The notes beneath the pieces are model-generated. The model did not search any database and was not told the origin of the DNA. It was given only the letters and a program-made list of their open reading frames with translations. From contig JASBTI010000030.1 of NCBI GenBank assembly GCA_030148505.1, positions 1-64,000 on the forward strand: a stretch of DNA of 64,000 bases, written 5' to 3'. Source of the stretch: Rhodanobacter sp. (GTDB taxonomy: Bacteria > Pseudomonadota > Gammaproteobacteria > Xanthomonadales > Rhodanobacteraceae). The translations under genes and the position numbers were made by a program. The stretch's first letter is position 1, and the number at the start of each line of letters is the position of its first letter. This document shows positions 2,280 to 59,916 of this stretch, piece by piece.

Positions 2280-4028
2280 TCAGTGACCCGGCGGCCCAGC
2301 ATCCTTTTTCGGCGGCAACAAGCCGCGCAACAGGCTGTTGAGAGCCTCCTGCTTGTTCGCCGGTTTGGCCGGCGCAGCCGGCCTGGTGGTAGTCGGAGCC
2401 GTCTTGCCCGCTCCGCCGGAAACCCCCGCCTTGATCAGCCCGGCAACGGCCCCGGGATCCAGGGTGAAGGTCGGTGCGCTGGCGGTGCCACCGATGCGCA
2501 CGCCGATGCCCTGTGCCGTGGTGCCCGCAAGCATCCCCCCCAGCATGCGCCCAGCCTTGGAGTGGCCGAGCAAGCCACCCACCGGACCCTGGCCGTTCTG
2601 GCTGGCACCGGTAATTGCCTCGTCGAGCTTGACCAACATGCGGAAGTCGAGCTTGCCGCTCGCCGCCATCCCACCCTTGCCGTTGAAGCTGCCGAGATCG
2701 GCAATATCGGCACTGGCCGGGTTGGCGTTGATTCCGGATGGATCGATCTTCAACGTCGCCGTTGCGTGTTGGATCACGGTGTCCTTCGGTGCCTTGATGC
2801 CTGCCAGCGACAATGCGCCACCAAGTTTCGAGCCGAGGCTGAAACCGGCCAGGCGTGAATTGTCCAGCGTCACCGGGCCACTGATCACCAGCTTGTCGAG
2901 CGGCCCCCGCGCACGCAGATTCACCCCCAGGTTGCCGCCACTGAGATGCGAATCCTTGGGCAGCACCACCCCGAATGCCGGCAGCAGCGGTTGCAGGTCA
3001 TCGACCGGCAAACCCTTGCCGCGGATACGCAGATCCAGCTGCATGATTTTCGCGTGGTTGTCGAAGCTGCCACTGACGGCCAGCTTCGCCGCGCCGCTGC
3101 CCAGTGTGGTGTTGTCGATCTTGCCGGTACCCGAGCTGAGCTGGTAACTAGCCTGGTAGTCGATGCGTACCGCTCGCGGTGAGGGCGCCCCGGCCGCCAC
3201 CAGCTTCAACTGACGGGCCTCAATAATGCCTTTGGACTGCAATACGCCCCGCGCTGAGCTGATCCGCGTATCCAGGTCCAGCACGCCCCCCACACCGTCG
3301 CCGCTGCTCATCAGACCGGCGCCGACCAGGTTCAGGTCGTGCATTACCAGATGCGCCTCGACCGGCGTCATCACCGCATTCTGCGCACGCCATGGACCCA
3401 GCGTGCCGTCCACCTTCAGGGTGCCGCCGCCGGCCATGGCTGCATCCATCGAGAACGGGAATGCGGCACTGCTGCCTACGTGCTGGGCACTCAGCTGCAC
3501 TTTGGTATAGCGGCGCGAGCCGCCGACCGAGCGCTTGAGCTCGATGCTGCCGTTGTTGATACGTAACTTGTCTACGCTGAACGCCAGCGGCGGTGACGAA
3601 TTCTCTGCGGACGCCTGGGCCGCCGGCTGCACGGCACCGGTGTCGCCAAAACTGGCGAAATTCCACTGCCCGGCAGGATTTTGCAGTAGCCGCACATTGG
3701 GATTGTCCAGGGTCAGCGAGGTAATCCGCAGTTGCTGGTGCACCAGCAAGGGCCACAGCCGAACCCCGAGCGCCAGCGACTGCGCGCTGACAAACGGCTG
3801 GGTGCCAAAGGCCGGATCGTCGCCGATGCGGATATTGTCGGCATCCAGTGAACCGGACCACACCGACACATGCAGCTTGCCCAGCGTCACCTGGCGTCCC
3901 AACGCCTTGCTCAGCGTAGTCTGGATCTGTGGCCGGAAATGATTCACGTCGACCAGCATCAACGCGCCCCCACCGAGGATGACGATGGCGACCAGGACGA
4001 CGACGAATCCGATCAGCAGGCGTTTCAT
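2280..4028 (-). CDS. AsmA-family envelope protein
   Basis: A 582-residue protein. It begins with an uncleaved signal anchor (MKRLLIGFVVVLVAIVILGG) followed by the AsmA-type opening VNHFRPQIQTTLSKALGR. The body has long beta-rich repeats with LRI(N/T)-type strands, and the AsmA C-terminal domain lies around residues 330-500 (LDKLVISGPVTLDNSRLAGF). The tail is proline/alanine-rich. AsmA-like proteins span the periplasm and are linked to phospholipid traffic and outer-membrane homeostasis. The ATG at 4028 has GGAG upstream; the frame stays open a further 40 codons, but that extension is not family-like. Monocistronic as far as visible. Confidence 0.85.
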   Translation of the reverse strand: MKRLLIGFVVVLVAIVILGGGALMLVDVNHFRPQIQTTLSKALGRQVTLGKLHVSVWSGSLDADNIRIGDDPAFGTQPFVSAQSLALGVRLWPLLVHQQLRITSLTLDNPNVRLLQNPAGQWNFASFGDTGAVQPAAQASAENSSPPLAFSVDKLRINNGSIELKRSVGGSRRYTKVQLSAQHVGSSAAFPFSMDAAMAGGGTLKVDGTLGPWRAQNAVMTPVEAHLVMHDLNLVGAGLMSSGDGVGGVLDLDTRISSARGVLQSKGIIEARQLKLVAAGAPSPRAVRIDYQASYQLSSGTGKIDNTTLGSGAAKLAVSGSFDNHAKIMQLDLRIRGKGLPVDDLQPLLPAFGVVLPKDSHLSGGNLGVNLRARGPLDKLVISGPVTLDNSRLAGFSLGSKLGGALSLAGIKAPKDTVIQHATATLKIDPSGINANPASADIADLGSFNGKGGMAASGKLDFRMLVKLDEAITGASQNGQGPVGGLLGHSKAGRMLGGMLAGTTAQGIGVRIGGTASAPTFTLDPGAVAGLIKAGVSGGAGKTAPTTTRPAAPAKPANKQEALNSLLRGLLPPKKDAGPPGH

Positions 4029-54948: not shown

Positions 54949-55887
54949 ATGACGCTTCCCCATGGCATCCACACCATCGATACCGGTTTTGTGCGGCCGC
55001 ACTTCGACGCGGCCTACCTGCTGGTCGAAAAGGGTCGCGGTGCATTCATCGACTGCGGCACCAACCATTCGGTGCCGCGCATGCTGGCCGAACTGGATGT
55101 CTGTGGCCTGACCGCAGCCGATGTGGACTGGTTGATCCTCACCCACGTGCATCTCGATCACGCCGGTGGTGCCGGCGAACTGATCGCGCAGTTGCCCAAC
55201 GCCAGGCTGGTGGTTCACCCGCGGGGTGCGCGGCACATGATCGACCCGTCCAAGTTGTGGGCCGGTGCCAGTGCGGTCTACGGGGAAACCGTGATGGAGC
55301 GCGAGTACGGCCGACTGCGGCCGGTCCCGGCCGAGCGTGTGATCGAGGCCGTCGATGGCCACATGGTGGATCTGGCGGGACGCCTGCTGCGCTGCATCGA
55401 CACCCCTGGCCATGCAAAGCATCACATCGCGATCCATGATACCCGCGCCAACGTCTGCTTCACCGGCGACGTGTTCGGCCTGAGCTATCGCGAGTTCGAT
55501 ACCGCACGCGGTGCCTTCATCCTGCCCACCACCTCGCCGGTGCAGTTCGACCCCGACGCGCTGCACGCCTCGATCAACCGACTGGTCGCACTGAAGCCAG
55601 CCGCGATGTACCTCACCCACTTCAACCGGGTCGATGAAATCGACCGCCTCGCCGATGACCTGCATGAGCAGATCGACGCCATGGTCGCCCTAGCCCATGC
55701 CGCCAACCAGCAACCCGATCGCCACGCCTCACTCGTCGCCTTCCTCACCCGCTTGTACGCCGACCGTGCCAAAGCCCATGGCTGGCAAGGCAACCACGAA
55801 ACATTGCTGGAGCTGCTCGGCGGGGACATCGAGCTGAATGCGCAGGGCCTGGGCGTGTGGTTGGACAGTAACGGGACCCGGCAGTAA
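54949..55887 (+). CDS. MBL-fold metallo-hydrolase
   Basis: A 312-residue metallo-beta-lactamase-fold protein. The metal motif is THVHLDHAGG near residue 64, with further ligand histidines or aspartates in CIDTPGHAKHH and in CFTGDVFG. A C-terminal helical region (about 220-312) follows, with HFNRVDEIDRLADDLHEQID. No signal peptide. The substrate is unknown. It ends before a REP-like palindrome. Confidence 0.82.
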   Translation: MTLPHGIHTIDTGFVRPHFDAAYLLVEKGRGAFIDCGTNHSVPRMLAELDVCGLTAADVDWLILTHVHLDHAGGAGELIAQLPNARLVVHPRGARHMIDPSKLWAGASAVYGETVMEREYGRLRPVPAERVIEAVDGHMVDLAGRLLRCIDTPGHAKHHIAIHDTRANVCFTGDVFGLSYREFDTARGAFILPTTSPVQFDPDALHASINRLVALKPAAMYLTHFNRVDEIDRLADDLHEQIDAMVALAHAANQQPDRHASLVAFLTRLYADRAKAHGWQGNHETLLELLGGDIELNAQGLGVWLDSNGTRQ

Positions 55888-55923
55888 CCGAACCGGACCC
55901 GAAGGGCACTTGCTGAAGCGTCA

Positions 55924-55941
55924 TCCCCGCGAAGGCGGGGA
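55924..55941. repeat. REP-like palindrome
   Basis: TCCCCGC-gaag-GCGGGGA forms a perfect 7-bp stem with a 4-base loop. The flanks (GTCAT before, ACCCCGTG after) resemble the other two palindromes at 58952-58971 and 59523-59540 in opposite orientation. It lies 37 bases after the MBL gene and could also act as a terminator. Confidence 0.7.
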
Positions 55942-56102
55942 CCCCGTGTCTTTCGCTCCATCCAACACCCTTGAAGTCACTGGATTCCCGCTTGACCCGC
56001 CATTCGGCGGTTGAGAGCCGCGAAAATGACGAAAAGTGAGGTTTTTCGCCTAAGCAGGTGCGATTCGAGCCCGACTCTGTTTTGACCCGAGCGCGGCATT
56101 CT

Positions 56103-57041
56103 TCAACGGTGGAGGATGCCGATCGTTCGCAGCCATACCTCGGCCAGGCGCGGCCAGCCGGTGATCGGATTCGCTGTCGGCCGCAAGCCGAAGGCATGCC
56201 CCCCGTGAGCATACAGATGCATCTCTGCCGGCACCCGCGCCTTGGCCAGCGCGGTGTAATAGACCAGCGACTGGTTCACGCCGTCGACGTAGTCGTCTTC
56301 CGCCTGGACCAGAAAGGTAGGTGGCGTCGTGCTGGACACCGGCACATTGGGATTCAACTTGCCGTCACCCTTGGTGAGATGCCCCGGATAAATCGGCATG
56401 GCGAAATCCGGGCGCGCACTCTCCTTGTCAGCCGCATCCACCGGCGCATACAGGTGCCGATCGAAGTTTGTGCTGATCTCCGCCACCAGGAAGCCGCCCG
56501 CCGAAAAACCCAGCACGCCGACCTTGTGCGGATCGACATGCCACTGCGCCGCGTGAAAGCGCACCAGCCGCATCGTTCGCTGCACGTCCTGCAACGACGA
56601 CACCGACAGCGCAAAGTTGTGCGGACGGCAGTTGCAATGCCAGTCATAGGGCTTGCTTGGCACGCGATACTTCAACAACACGCAGGTGATGCCATGGGAC
56701 GTCAGCCAGTCGCAAGCCTCGGTACCTTCCAGATCGATGGCCAGTATCTCGAACCCGCCACCGGGAATCACCACCACGGCAGCCCCCGTATTCTTTCCCC
56801 TGGGCGCATACACCGTCATCGTCGGCCGGGTCACATTGCTCACCGCCGTCACCGGCTTGCCCGCCAGCAACTTGTCACTCACCGTCACCGTTTCCGCACC
56901 GGGAACCGCCTGCAAATCGGGCGCCACCCCCGGCCATATCGGCACCTGCGTATGCCCCGCAGCCGGCTGCCAGACCATCGTTTTCGCCTGCACGCCCGCG
57001 CTTGCCAGCAACAGCCCCAAAGCAACCACCCAAAACTTCAT
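56103..57041 (-). CDS. Exported alpha/beta hydrolase (esterase, BD-FAE-like)
   Basis: A 312-residue protein with a signal peptide (MKFWVVALGLLLASAGVQAK). The oxyanion block is VVVIPGGGFEILAIDLEG, the nucleophile lies in VGVLGFSAGGFLVAEI near residue 180, the acid in LVQAEDDYVDGVN and the histidine in YAHGGHAFGL near 281. It resembles acetyl-xylan and feruloyl esterases or other lipase-like exported esterases. The start at 57041 has GGGGGAG upstream. Confidence 0.85.
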   Translation of the reverse strand: MKFWVVALGLLLASAGVQAKTMVWQPAAGHTQVPIWPGVAPDLQAVPGAETVTVSDKLLAGKPVTAVSNVTRPTMTVYAPRGKNTGAAVVVIPGGGFEILAIDLEGTEACDWLTSHGITCVLLKYRVPSKPYDWHCNCRPHNFALSVSSLQDVQRTMRLVRFHAAQWHVDPHKVGVLGFSAGGFLVAEISTNFDRHLYAPVDAADKESARPDFAMPIYPGHLTKGDGKLNPNVPVSSTTPPTFLVQAEDDYVDGVNQSLVYYTALAKARVPAEMHLYAHGGHAFGLRPTANPITGWPRLAEVWLRTIGILHR

Positions 57042-57439
57042 GACACTCCCCCGATCCGGCACCCGGCCAGCATTCCACGTTCAAGACAACACATCGACTG
57101 AACCACCTCCCGCCGATCCTGCGCGCCGCATCGGTCCTGCCACGGTCATTGACATGGCTTTTTTCTGAAATAGCACCAAACACCTTGCCCTCTGCTCGCG
57201 GCCAACCCAGACCGGATCGTGTAGGCAACTTGGCAGGACAACATTGACGATCAAGCCAGAGAGACTCTTTGAGCAAGTATCAGATCGGGTGTCATGGCCC
57301 GGCTCACTCACTTCCCGTCAATCACGCAATGTCGAGAGGACAGGGCAACCGACGCGCAAGCTGCGAAGGGCCGAGGCCGCCCCTTAGCGGTCCTTCCAGC
57401 CCTCGGGCTGTATAAACGCCAATACCGAACCGGGCACAA
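57042..57439. other. 398-bp intergenic region
   Basis: No convincing gene on either strand. Short minus-strand frames of 60-76 codons lack ribosome-binding sites and family resemblance. It separates the esterase from the lower-GC hypothetical gene. I see no clear attachment site. Confidence 0.35.
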
Positions 57440-58393
57440 TTAGTCGACGTCGCCTTGGGGTGGCTCATCGCCCTCTTCCGCATCGTCGAAATAGACGCCC
57501 GGCGAGCCAATAAAACCCATTATTTCGAGCCGTTCCTTCCGCTCTTTAGGATCCATTTCTTTGTAGTGAGACTCCAACTCGTCCATCACCTCAGCCTTCG
57601 ACGCATCTGACTTAAAGCAATCGAGGTAGTCGTCGACCAGACCAGGATCGAAATCTAACGGCCTAATCCCCTTGAGGAACCTCAGGTAGCCCAAGCTCGG
57701 GTCCGCGTTCATGAAGAAGATGAGCAGTTCCTTCCAAAGCACGTCCTCGTCGCCCATGTTCCACTCGCGCCCGAATACGCTGTACGCCTTCGAGCTGTGC
57801 TGCAGTTCATACGTGTACAAACCAAGCTCGCTAGAGCGGTCGCTGACGATCTTATAGATCGTCCGCGAGATCTTCAGGACCGTGCGGCCGATGAAGGCAC
57901 GGTATCGGTCCTCGTTGGGTGTACCGAATGAGAGGGACTTGTCTGGGAACTTTATGCCTAGGTACTTGCTAAGCAGCGCGCGAATTGCCTCGGTTTCCTT
58001 CTTTCCTTTGTAGACCGAGTTGAGCGAAAAGCGGTCATACCGCAACGTCTTGTAGAACGTGCTCAAAAGTTGCAGGAGGTCATTCTGCGGCTTACTTAAG
58101 CTGATCGTGACGTGCTTTTGCACACGCGCCACCAGGTCCAAGTGGCTGTGCGTGATAAGTGACTGCTCTAGCGCATCCTGATCGGTTGCGTCGGTGTGCT
58201 CGTGCAGTACGACCGCGATCTTCAATAGCCGTTCGAGACCGACCGACAGGTTATAGAGGAACTCGAACAAATCGTCGGTGTAATCAAGCTTCCGTAGTTC
58301 ATGGAACCGACGCAGTCCGTTGTAGATGAAGGATCCGGCGATGTGCACTTCCTCGCCGAGCCGGAAATTCTTCCAAAAATCTGACGGATTCAT
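57440..58393 (-). CDS. Hypothetical protein, HEPN-like, probably acquired
   Basis: A 317-residue soluble protein I cannot assign. The helical segment FEFLYNLSVGLERLLKIAVV followed by EQSLITHSHLDLVARVQKHV and LLQLLSTFYKTLRYDRFSLN looks like HEPN or abortive-infection-type proteins, but the classical Rx4-6H motif is not certain. The C-terminus is acidic. The gene is visibly less GC-rich than its neighbours and is flanked by the structured repeats. The start at 58393 (MNPSDFWKNFRLGEE) follows a purine-rich stretch; 37 upstream codons are open. A defence role is only a hypothesis. Confidence 0.6.
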   Translation of the reverse strand: MNPSDFWKNFRLGEEVHIAGSFIYNGLRRFHELRKLDYTDDLFEFLYNLSVGLERLLKIAVVLHEHTDATDQDALEQSLITHSHLDLVARVQKHVTISLSKPQNDLLQLLSTFYKTLRYDRFSLNSVYKGKKETEAIRALLSKYLGIKFPDKSLSFGTPNEDRYRAFIGRTVLKISRTIYKIVSDRSSELGLYTYELQHSSKAYSVFGREWNMGDEDVLWKELLIFFMNADPSLGYLRFLKGIRPLDFDPGLVDDYLDCFKSDASKAEVMDELESHYKEMDPKERKERLEIMGFIGSPGVYFDDAEEGDEPPQGDVD

Positions 58394-58557
58394 GATTCTC
58401 GCTTCTTTCGATTCCAAGACCAGACAGCCTATCGCTGCGAACGGTGATTGAGCCTGCTCAGAAGCCATCGGCGCCCAAAAGGGCGGCACTAATGACACGT
58501 CCACAGTCTAGGCTGCTCGGCGAGGATGAGCCCAGTGTCCGTTCATGGCCGAGCTGA

Positions 58558-58910
58558 GACATTCGGAGCGTTCAGCTATTCAGTGCAAAGCACCTTTCCC
58601 TCCTCAGCATCCGCCACCGCGCAGCGGTCGCGCACCGAGTGCGCGCCAGGATGGCGCGCTGCTCTACCCGGGGCCCCTGTGCGGCGGTGAGGTGGGGGCG
58701 ACAGGCCCGCAGGGGGAGTCGGCACGATGCCGACTCCTTTTCGCCAGCACATGGATGTGCTGTCGAAAAGCCCGGCCCCAGCTCACGGACTTGCGGGGCA
58801 TGGATGCCCGGCAAGCGCCAAGCGGGGTGGCCTTCTCTGTTGGTTACTTATCTCTTGGCCACGCAAGAGATAAGTAACTCGGGCGCCGAAGGCGCACGAA
58901 AGCTCTAGCA
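58558..58910. repeat. Structured repeat element, copy 1
   Basis: About 350 bases repeated at 59048-59472. It begins GACATTCGGAGCGTTCAGCT and contains a 10-bp hairpin at 58715-58737 followed by TTTT, then an imperfect hairpin (58738-58770) and a perfect 15-bp inverted repeat, GTTACTTATCTCTTG (58843-58857) with CAAGAGATAAGTAAC (58864-58878). Short frames inside it are not convincing genes. Confidence 0.75.
58715..58741 (+). terminator. Terminator-like hairpin in copy 1
   Basis: GGAGTCGGCA-cga-TGCCGACTCC is a perfect 10-bp stem with a 3-base loop, followed by TTTT. The same structure occurs in copy 2. It is the form of a rho-independent terminator, with a short T-run. Confidence 0.45.
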
Positions 58911-58951
58911 TTCAAGGCTTCACAACAGTTTGGAGGCGGAGCAGTCACTGG

Positions 58952-58971
58952 ATCCCTGCCTTCGCAGGGAT
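58952..58971. repeat. REP-like palindrome
   Basis: ATCCCTGC-cttc-GCAGGGAT, a perfect 8-bp stem, flanked by CACTGG and GACGAG. It lies between the two structured repeats. Confidence 0.7.
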
Positions 58972-59047
58972 GACGAGATGGAGTCAGGTAATTCGAGGAA
59001 ACTCGGGCAGAATGCATTTGTTGAGTGGCAAATGCTGGCCTACCTGC

Positions 59048-59472
59048 GACATTCGGAGCGTTCAGCTATTCAGTGCGGAGCGGAATCTTTCCCTCCTCAG
59101 CATTCGCCACTGCACAGCCATGGCGCACCGAGTGCGCGCCAGGATGGCGCGCTTGCTCTACCCGGGGCCCCTGTGCGGCGGTGAGGTGGGGACGACAGGC
59201 CCCGCAGGGGAGTCGGCACGATGCCGACTCCTTTTCGACAGCACATGAATGTGCTGTCGAAAAGCCCGGCCCCGCCTCACGGACTTGCCGGGCAAGGATG
59301 CCCGGCAAGCGCCAAGCGGGGTGTCGTTTTCTCTTGGGTACTTCTCTTTTACTCCGGGCATCCTGCCCTCCGCCCTTCGGGCCAGCTTCGCTGTTCATAC
59401 GCGCTCCTGCGCGTATGTGGACAAGCAAAAGAGAAGTACCTCGGGCCGCAAAGCGGGTCGAAACGCTCTTGC
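59048..59472. repeat. Structured repeat element, copy 2
   Basis: About 425 bases, homologous to 58558-58910 over most of its length. It carries the same 10-bp terminator-like hairpin, then TTTTCGACAGCAC (59232-59244) with GTGCTGTCGAAAA (59251-59263), and an outer inverted repeat GGTACTTCTCTTTT (59337-59350) with AAAAGAGAAGTACC (59427-59440). Inside that is CATACGCGC-tcct-GCGCGTATG (59396-59417), absent from copy 1. The stems differ from copy 1 but both arms change together. Confidence 0.75.
59209..59263. terminator. Double terminator-like hairpin in copy 2
   Basis: GGAGTCGGCA-cga-TGCCGACTCC (59209-59231) runs straight into TTTT, which itself starts the perfect 13-bp stem 59232-59244/59251-59263 flanked by T4 and A4. 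The second stem could end transcripts in either direction. Confidence 0.5.
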
Positions 59473-59522
59473 CTGTCCACTCCAAGCTGACACCAGCCAT
59501 TGGATGGCCAAAGGCACTGGGC

Positions 59523-59540
59523 CCCAGCATCCGCTGGGGT
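59523..59540. repeat. REP-like palindrome
   Basis: CCCCAGC-atcc-GCTGGGG, a perfect 7-bp stem flanked by CACTGGG and TGACGAG, the same flanks as at 58952-58971. It lies just after structured repeat copy 2 and 16 bases from the end of the CsaA-like gene. Confidence 0.65.
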
Positions 59541-59556
59541 GACGAGCGAGATCACA

Positions 59557-59916
59557 TCACGCCAACCGCGTGCCATTCGGCACCGGCCGCTCCACCGCCG
59601 CAAGCACCACCCCCTCGTCGGTAGGGAACCCGGTCAACAAAAACTGCGAACGAAACGGACCGATCTGCTTTTCGGGAAAATTGATTACGCCAACGATCTG
59701 GCGCCCGAGCAGATCGTCGGCGGTATACAACGCGGCAATCTGCGCGCTTGTCTTCTTCTCGCCATAGGGCCCGAAGTCGGCCCAGACCTTCCAGGCCGGC
59801 TTGCGCGCTTCGGGAAACGGCTCCACCCGAATCACCGTACCGACCACGGTGAGTACCTTCTGGAAATCGGCCCAGCTGATTTCGCCAACGACCTCTTCGG
59901 TGCCTTGCGCCATCAT
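59557..59916 (-). CDS. tRNA-binding domain protein (CsaA-like)
   Basis: A 119-residue OB-fold protein of the CsaA/tRNA-binding family. Blocks are [29 protein letters not shown], then [20 protein letters not shown] and [18 protein letters not shown]. CsaA acts as an export-related chaperone in Bacillus; other members bind tRNA-like substrates. The ATG overlaps the stop of the upstream oxidoreductase by four bases, so the two are co-translated. Confidence 0.85.

Follow-up and report, generated by a model that had tools for sequence, protein, structure and literature searches.

What is a large, hairpin-rich repeat doing in two similar copies in a genome of Rhodanobacter, a genus of soil bacteria, and what preserves its shape while its sequence changes? 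The question is raised by a locus in the 64-kb stretch of DNA analysed here (the window), for which a preliminary description had proposed a duplicated element under selection for its structure, which could be an RNA, a DNA cruciform or a non-autonomous mobile unit moved by another enzyme.

The two copies in the window and their insertion site

The two repeat copies, both on the + strand, occupy positions 58546-58900 and 59036-59460 of the window and resemble each other in a 197-nt block and a 67-nt block (each 91% similar) as well as in a 46-nt block (89%). Each copy is hereafter called an arm; both are of the type designated alpha below and are recognized by R1, a covariance model built from 28 copies of the family, with 167.5 bits for copy 1 (model core 58675-58830) and 171.1 bits for copy 2 (model core 59169-59324). 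Hairpin H2 (58715-58737 and 59209-59231, both +) has a 10-bp stem followed by TTTT and, in both copies, a CGA loop, whereas 97 of the 107 sequences analysed below have GGA. H3 bears an apical TGGA in copy 1 (58737-58770, +) and is a perfect 16-bp hairpin without GGA in its loop in copy 2 (59231-59264, +), and H6 has an apical TGGA in copy 1 (58790-58815, +) and an apical AGGA on 11 bp in copy 2 (59284-59309, +). The long outer stem reported to differ between the copies corresponds to H4, which was found at 58843-58878 (+; 15 bp, arms 58843-58857 and 58864-58878, 100% complementary) and at 59337-59440 (+; arms 59337-59353 and 59424-59440, 17 nt, 94%). The apical loop of the latter contains an optional insert common to copies of other species, within which lies the extra perfect hairpin ascribed to copy 2 (59396-59417, +), whose GGA loop is on the - strand. 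Copy 1 ends with H5 (58879-58900, +), shortly beyond which the family similarity fades. In RNA folding, both copies beat all 100 shuffles (z -5.2 and -8.6), and long reading frames overlap both of them on both strands. CGTC-tagged REP-like palindromes (the class name follows the accessible part of PMC3733652) come after both copies, at 58949-58975 (-) and 59519-59544 (-).

The duplicated element, including its stems and the 10-bp hairpins, was therefore present as described, except that the T-run consists of four T only and terminator-like matches are not above chance. Both window copies have fewer GGA loops than the family norm (H2 of both and H3 of copy 2), and the window pair is a partly decayed tandem example of the family.

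Both arms are part of an insertion of approximately 3.7 kb (55888-59556) between two convergent genes, one at 54949-55887 (+) and a tRNA_bind gene ending at 59557 (-). The insertion further contains an alpha/beta-hydrolase gene (56103-57062, -), which is found away from this site in relatives, and, beside copy 1, a frame of 354 aa (57440-58504, -) that is a candidate cargo gene, had no Pfam or PADLOC match and lacked a match in another genome among the matches listed for 45 genus genomes. Among 13 loci from relatives, six have the flanking genes next to each other: in five (L275, L276, L278, L279 and L284) the convergent genes are separated by 10-39 bp, measured between the matching stretches, and the distance in L281 is about as short. 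Five other loci (L274, L277, L280, L282 and L283) carry different insertions of 1.0-2.4 kb, and in L272 and L273 an arm adjoins the right flank. In L273, which belongs to another species, a tyrosine-recombinase-like frame (about 2400-3400, as read from the printed sequence) lies directly upstream of the arm.

A dispersed family of outward-facing pairs

When copy 2 was used as the query, matches were obtained in 41 of 60 genomes, comprising the window's own, all 35 others from its genus and 5 of the 24 from its order, the last being weaker than the same-genus matches (best E 2e-13). The window's own genome gave 19 BLAST pieces and 13 R1 matches. A total of 293 R1 matches were detected in 27 of the 36 genus genomes, which reveals a dispersed Rhodanobacter family with two arm types, alpha and beta; Dyella contigs also carry it. 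Searches of Rfam returned no gathering-level match in the 64-kb window, and the three weak matches in the 1.2-kb region of the copies (rsmX, CRISPR-DR29 and ftsZ-DE) all lay on the opposite strand and failed to reach their cut-offs, rsmX scoring 25.1 bits (E 0.025) against a cut-off of 56. A plasmid origin was also considered and discarded, as no match was found in the plasmid collection. Among the open PubMed Central titles and abstract openings listed, none named paired repeats of this kind or CsrA motifs in a dispersed repeat.

Among 97 cases of neighbouring copies within 7 kb in the 27 genomes, 94 are outward-facing pairs, and the three exceptions are head-to-tail, two on the + strand (one of them in the window) and one on the - strand. 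Pairing involves 188 of the 293 copies; the remaining 105, many of them in draft genomes, are unpaired. Where a single contig holds every match, as in four genomes, 52 of 61 copies are paired. Arms are about 260 nt long, and the core-to-core gaps are either short (3-392 bp, 73 pairs) or long (1.0-6.3 kb, 21 pairs), such that the gap is mostly about 150 bp or is filled by kilobase-sized cargo. The unit is thus normally an outward-facing pair with a gap able to take cargo, of which the head-to-tail order in the window is atypical. The alpha/beta combination predominates in short pairs (20 of 30) and alpha/alpha in long pairs (10 of 13, versus 6 of 30 short pairs; Fisher p 0.0012, in a post hoc comparison with a rough typing rule).

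The genes on both sides of cargo loci also show a preferred direction: 45 of 52 flanking frames point at the element (a hand count of frames picked by a rough codon-position rule), as do 37 of 56 for short pairs. Such an orientation is what would be expected if the arms were insulators or bidirectional terminators that stop transcription in and out, with cargo piling up passively because sockets holding cargo sit mostly between convergent genes, and the GC-rich hairpins with short T-runs fit this idea as well. Nevertheless, we consider it improbable, given that terminator-like matches are not above shuffles either in the window region (4 versus 2.4 +/- 1.6) or in one socket (2 versus 1.4 +/- 1.3), that one socket lies between co-directional genes read as fliP and fliQ, and that the fixed GGA loops on freely changing stems, described below, are left unexplained.

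Covarying stems and fixed GGA loops on the outward strand

The preliminary description had noted that both arms of a stem change together while pairing is kept, and had proposed a statistical test of covariation in a larger set of copies. Such a set, consisting of 108 R1 matches (107 distinct sequences), has 97.2% of its cells paired, with change on both sides in 33 of 46 pairs across the distinct core sequences. Its covariation score is 0.415, compared with 0.137 +/- 0.004 in shuffles (none of 500 reaches the score) and at most 0.098 in slid versions, in an alignment that was fitted to R1 and is thus biased in favour of the structure; when 29 copies were aligned without such fitting, 33 of 66 pairs had double changes. 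For H4, the outer stem mentioned above, a best-hairpin search recovered 47 different stems in 104 arms, a count that includes some truncated versions of a single stem and a few cases of another hairpin. The outcome that would have refuted the preliminary description, a lack of covariation in a larger set, thus did not arise. Among non-Watson-Crick cells read on the outward strand, G.T outnumbers A.C by 113 to 19 (43 to 13 within the three GGA hairpins), an excess much of which is supplied by few columns; this favours folding of the outward strand.

While the stems drift, the apical loops stay fixed. If the loop region is defined as the loop plus three bases on each side, GGA is present on the outward strand in H2 of 97 of 107 sequences, in H3 of 98 of 107 and in H6 of 94 of 106, with all three in 82 of 107; for the inner hairpin H0 the figure is only 43 of 96. 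A model-free search of 106 arms for perfect stems of at least six pairs closing a GGA loop detected 301 on the outward strand versus 8 on the inward strand, the background being 132 on both strands in 246.6 kb of locus ends. Similarly, each of the Dyella arms (45 tested of 48 matches) has two outward GGA hairpins, with 3 inward ones in total. The optional insert bears GGA hairpins on the opposite strand. Since related arms were counted separately, all these counts measure consistency rather than independent events.

These features help to evaluate the possibility that the structure has no function and that template switching and gene conversion, by copying one side of a stem onto the other, merely imitate covariation. 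Double changes do exceed one-sided ones (682 versus 107 cells, summed over the 107-sequence set), and arms do homogenize within a genome, for example to 99.2% between two sites of one genome (G024). However, such processes fail to predict the GGA loops, the 301:8 strand bias or the preference for G.T over A.C, and GTAG-type REP hairpins adjoining the arms, which would be subject to the same processes, have GGA in 0 of 33 cases; this possibility is therefore very remote. The covariation, the G.T excess and the outward GGA loops instead support the earlier proposal of selection on structure. Among the three forms suggested for the element, an RNA is favoured and a mobile unit is supported in part (see below), whereas the strand specificity of the signals makes a double-stranded cruciform less attractive.

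The loops themselves resemble known protein targets. The SELEX consensus of CsrA is RUACARGGAUGU and RsmE recognizes the hexaloop ANGGAN according to the accessible part of PMC7652899, and the loop context of the arms, C-A-N-GGA-U-G, is similar to both, on stems of approximately 9-11 GC-rich pairs that are stiffer than most of the SELEX ligands presented there. CsrA genes were found in all six genomes examined; one of these genomes (G030) has three CsrA-family matches, the five others one each. In Xanthomonas, the 3′-UTR-derived RNA RsmU, a precedent for an RNA of this kind, binds RsmA, and changing all four of its GGA did not abolish binding or effect, as reported in the accessible part of PMC7694677. 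Judging by their sequence, the arm loops are predicted to be docking sites for CsrA/RsmA.

Cargo

Thirty long-gap loci were read for frames and 29 were used, L119 being left out due to its weak second arm (29.3 bits). PADLOC matches with E <= 1e-20, the names of which are predictions, were present in 8 of the 29 cargo loci: PDC-S35 (TIR) in L050, Pycsar (PycTIR and PycC) in L053, PDC-S06 in L057, PDC-S19 in L223, Lamassu (LmuA and LmuB) in both L226 and L227, an LmuB-like ATPase and PDC-S52 in L230, and type I modification and specificity genes in L136. L053, L057, L223 and L230 are the same site seen in four genomes and therefore do not count as independent locations. When 30 proteins (29 cargo frames and the 354-aa frame of the window) were scanned singly, 12 passed 1e-20, one from L231 fell just short (1.7e-19) and 17 had no match at 0.001; as a control, 52 flanking frames gave 23 PADLOC models at 1e-20 with one member each, mostly helicase-named (a count of models, not of frames). 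The cargo thus looks enriched in, yet not limited to, candidate defence genes. A purely defensive cargo was ruled out, since many cargoes have no assignment and some were read from their translations as metabolic or regulatory, including an SDR with an AraC-type regulator in L054 and a transporter with a LysR-type regulator in L228, of which neither the SDR nor the transporter had a PADLOC match.

Several cargo proteins are related across species. Two species carry, at a single site, a DUF6988/PDC-S52 gene (L053:2202-2978 and L230:7180-7833) that is 98% alike, while their cargo otherwise differs (Pycsar versus an SMC-like ATPase). Two proteins in two further loci (L055:1994-2794 and L222:1947-2774), also from two species, are distantly related (43%) and have an N-terminal zinc ribbon (Pfam).

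Turnover of cargo and arms between sites

Clustering of flanks revealed that one site may exist in different states: the gap that is short in L061, L077 and L083 is filled with 1.5 kb in L056, whose similarity to L061 breaks off at the inner edge of the left arm and resumes at the end of the right arm. Another site, located by its right flank, holds six cargoes in different species (L053, L057, L089, L223, L230 and L257), with the above-mentioned gene common to L053 and L230. In 20 further loci of this site, any R1 match was detected in only 4 (L257 included), and the site is unoccupied or decayed in many species. Cargo was also found at different sites. The NERD-domain cargo of L074 is present in 4 of 45 genomes and lies beside an arm or arm piece in 3 of the 4; L074 and L093 become alike at the outer arm end, such that the NERD gene together with an arm occurs at two sites with different flanks, and the outer flank of L093 matches a short-gap site (L075). 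No second arm was detected in 7.5 kb around the copy at L093 (L285).

Arms are only loosely tied to their site. Of 58 arms, 39 have their nearest relative at another site, 15 in the orthologue on the same side and 4 in that on the other side. At the site between the co-directional genes read from sequence as fliP and fliQ, both flanks were recovered in 21 of 24 loci, of which 16 have the element (837-1096 bp between the markers) and 5 lack it (175-391 bp), three of these being clean and two keeping REPs or remnants. Here and at the window site, the search for empty sites in relatives that had been proposed along with the structure thus yielded both occupied and unoccupied states; no target duplication was noticed. 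These states, the cargo gene with an arm in differing flanks and the 39 of 58 arms with their nearest relative elsewhere give partial support to the view of the repeat as a non-autonomous mobile unit.

Such observations are also the ground for the main rival explanation, which we regard as unlikely, namely that the pairs are large non-autonomous transposable elements of the REPIN type, in which the arms would be single-strand-DNA recognition hairpins with REPs outside them and a RAYT (Y1 transposase) or other HUH enzyme would move the pair, at times with genes. Recognition of loops is typical of Y1/HUH enzymes, Y1_Tnp matches are present in 5 of 6 genomes, and the similarity between L074 and L093 begins at the outer arm end. 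Of 80 arms, 24 have an outward GTAG REP no more than 260 bp away, with REPs on both sides in 6 of 40 pairs, compared with 0 of 80 in the reversed orientation and a background of 3 in 61.9 kb, although by the pattern used the other 56 arms have none. On the other hand, one genome without a Y1_Tnp match (G014) has 11 R1 matches, the best R1 match near 12 Y1_Tnp loci (approximately 1.5 kb) reaches only E 0.29, and the lack of noticeable target duplication is a further point against transposition. The two arms of a pair are on opposite strands, so that recognition of one strand fails to explain outward GGA in both unless the arms are read singly. Considering the genome without Y1_Tnp and the lack of arms near the 12 Y1_Tnp loci, RAYT was rejected as a demonstrated mover and figures in this rival only.

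Arms as possible RNA-based gene sockets

The best explanation of these data, which we put forward tentatively and with slightly less than even confidence, is that the repeats are RNA modules with RsmA-type loops whose outward-facing pairs act as sockets for exchangeable genes. Each copy would be one arm of a unit that normally consists of a short spacer flanked by two outward-facing arms. In the outward direction, an arm would specify an RNA of approximately 260 nt in which the stems are free to change and three loops present GGA in an ANGGA context. Transcripts starting in the spacer or in a cargo gene may run outward into the arm, which would fold and bind RsmA; the arm would thereby serve as the 3′-UTR of the cargo gene and tie its mRNA to RsmA, and all the arms together might act as an RsmA sink. 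Since the sockets share sequence, arms and the genes enclosed by them could be exchanged among sites and strains by recombination in the arms, which would allow accessory genes, some of them phage defences, to turn over at fixed places. A wider claim, that throughout the genus a defence gene captured between arms joins the RsmA regulon through its 3′-UTR and that the arms provide the shared homology for cargo swaps, is possible and at present rather doubtful.

Two findings slightly weaken this explanation: one moved cargo copy is single-armed, and most of the loci fetched for the site with six cargoes are unoccupied. Promoter-like sites were found neither in the window region nor in one socket, and an enzyme that reads loops in single-stranded DNA might leave the same signals. 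The stiff stems, the window loops that lack GGA (H2 of both copies and H3 of copy 2), the low share of GGA in H0, the opposite strand of the GGA hairpins in the optional insert, the 105 unpaired matches, the absence of noticed target duplications and the persistence of RsmU binding after the change of its GGA also count against it.

If right, the socket explanation would join three subjects that are usually treated separately, namely dispersed palindromic repeats, the global regulator Csr/Rsm and the turnover of phage-defence genes, and would account for bacteria retaining at least ten copies of so large a structured repeat. It would also amount to a portable means of connecting recently acquired genes to a control circuit already in place, and provide a sequence signature by which undiscovered defence genes could be sought in Rhodanobacter and Dyella. 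With the RsmA part left aside, the paired structured repeats still mark sites of cargo turnover and offer a usable map of accessory-gene hot spots.

Comparison with known systems

No known family has every feature tested, and several share some of them. Csr/Rsm decoy RNAs are encoded by one or a few genes per genome. CsrB/C, RsmX/Y/Z and RsmU (for RsmU, the accessible part of PMC7694677) are like the arms in having several hairpins with GGA loops on one strand; three such loops are found on the outward strand, which would be the transcribed one, in 82 of 107 arms, and the cognate protein is encoded in all six genomes examined. Unlike these RNAs, the arms form a dispersed family in outward pairs around changing cargo, their binding to RsmA is a prediction, and Rfam places neither window copy in a decoy family, the rsmX match being below the cut-off and on the other strand.

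Non-autonomous units of the IS200/IS605 type have their end hairpins on the same strand, whereas 94 of 97 neighbouring arms are inverted and outward-facing. Integron attC cassettes consist of structured sites beside swappable genes, and the arms likewise adjoin exchangeable genes, but each cargo has two outward arms and the units are dispersed over genomes instead of forming an array. REPINs are short units of about 100 nt without cargo. With REPIN/BIME and RAYT systems, the arms share the nature of dispersed extragenic palindromes in inverted pairs, and REPs lie outside 24 of 80 of them; they differ in their length of about 260 nt, their five or more hairpins, their GGA loops and the gap of up to 6.3 kb with kilobase-sized cargo, as well as in a host genome (G014) without Y1_Tnp.

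In minimal mobile elements, a fixed position is occupied by different genes from strain to strain, and differing genes at one conserved site are also found here, between species. The Correia elements of Neisseria, according to the accessible part of PMC2649163, are dispersed inverted-repeat units that affect neighbouring genes, and the arms are likewise dispersed inverted-repeat units. What distinguishes the present family from both is that the bracket around the exchanged genes is itself a dispersed structured repeat, and that one cargo gene is found together with an arm at two sites.
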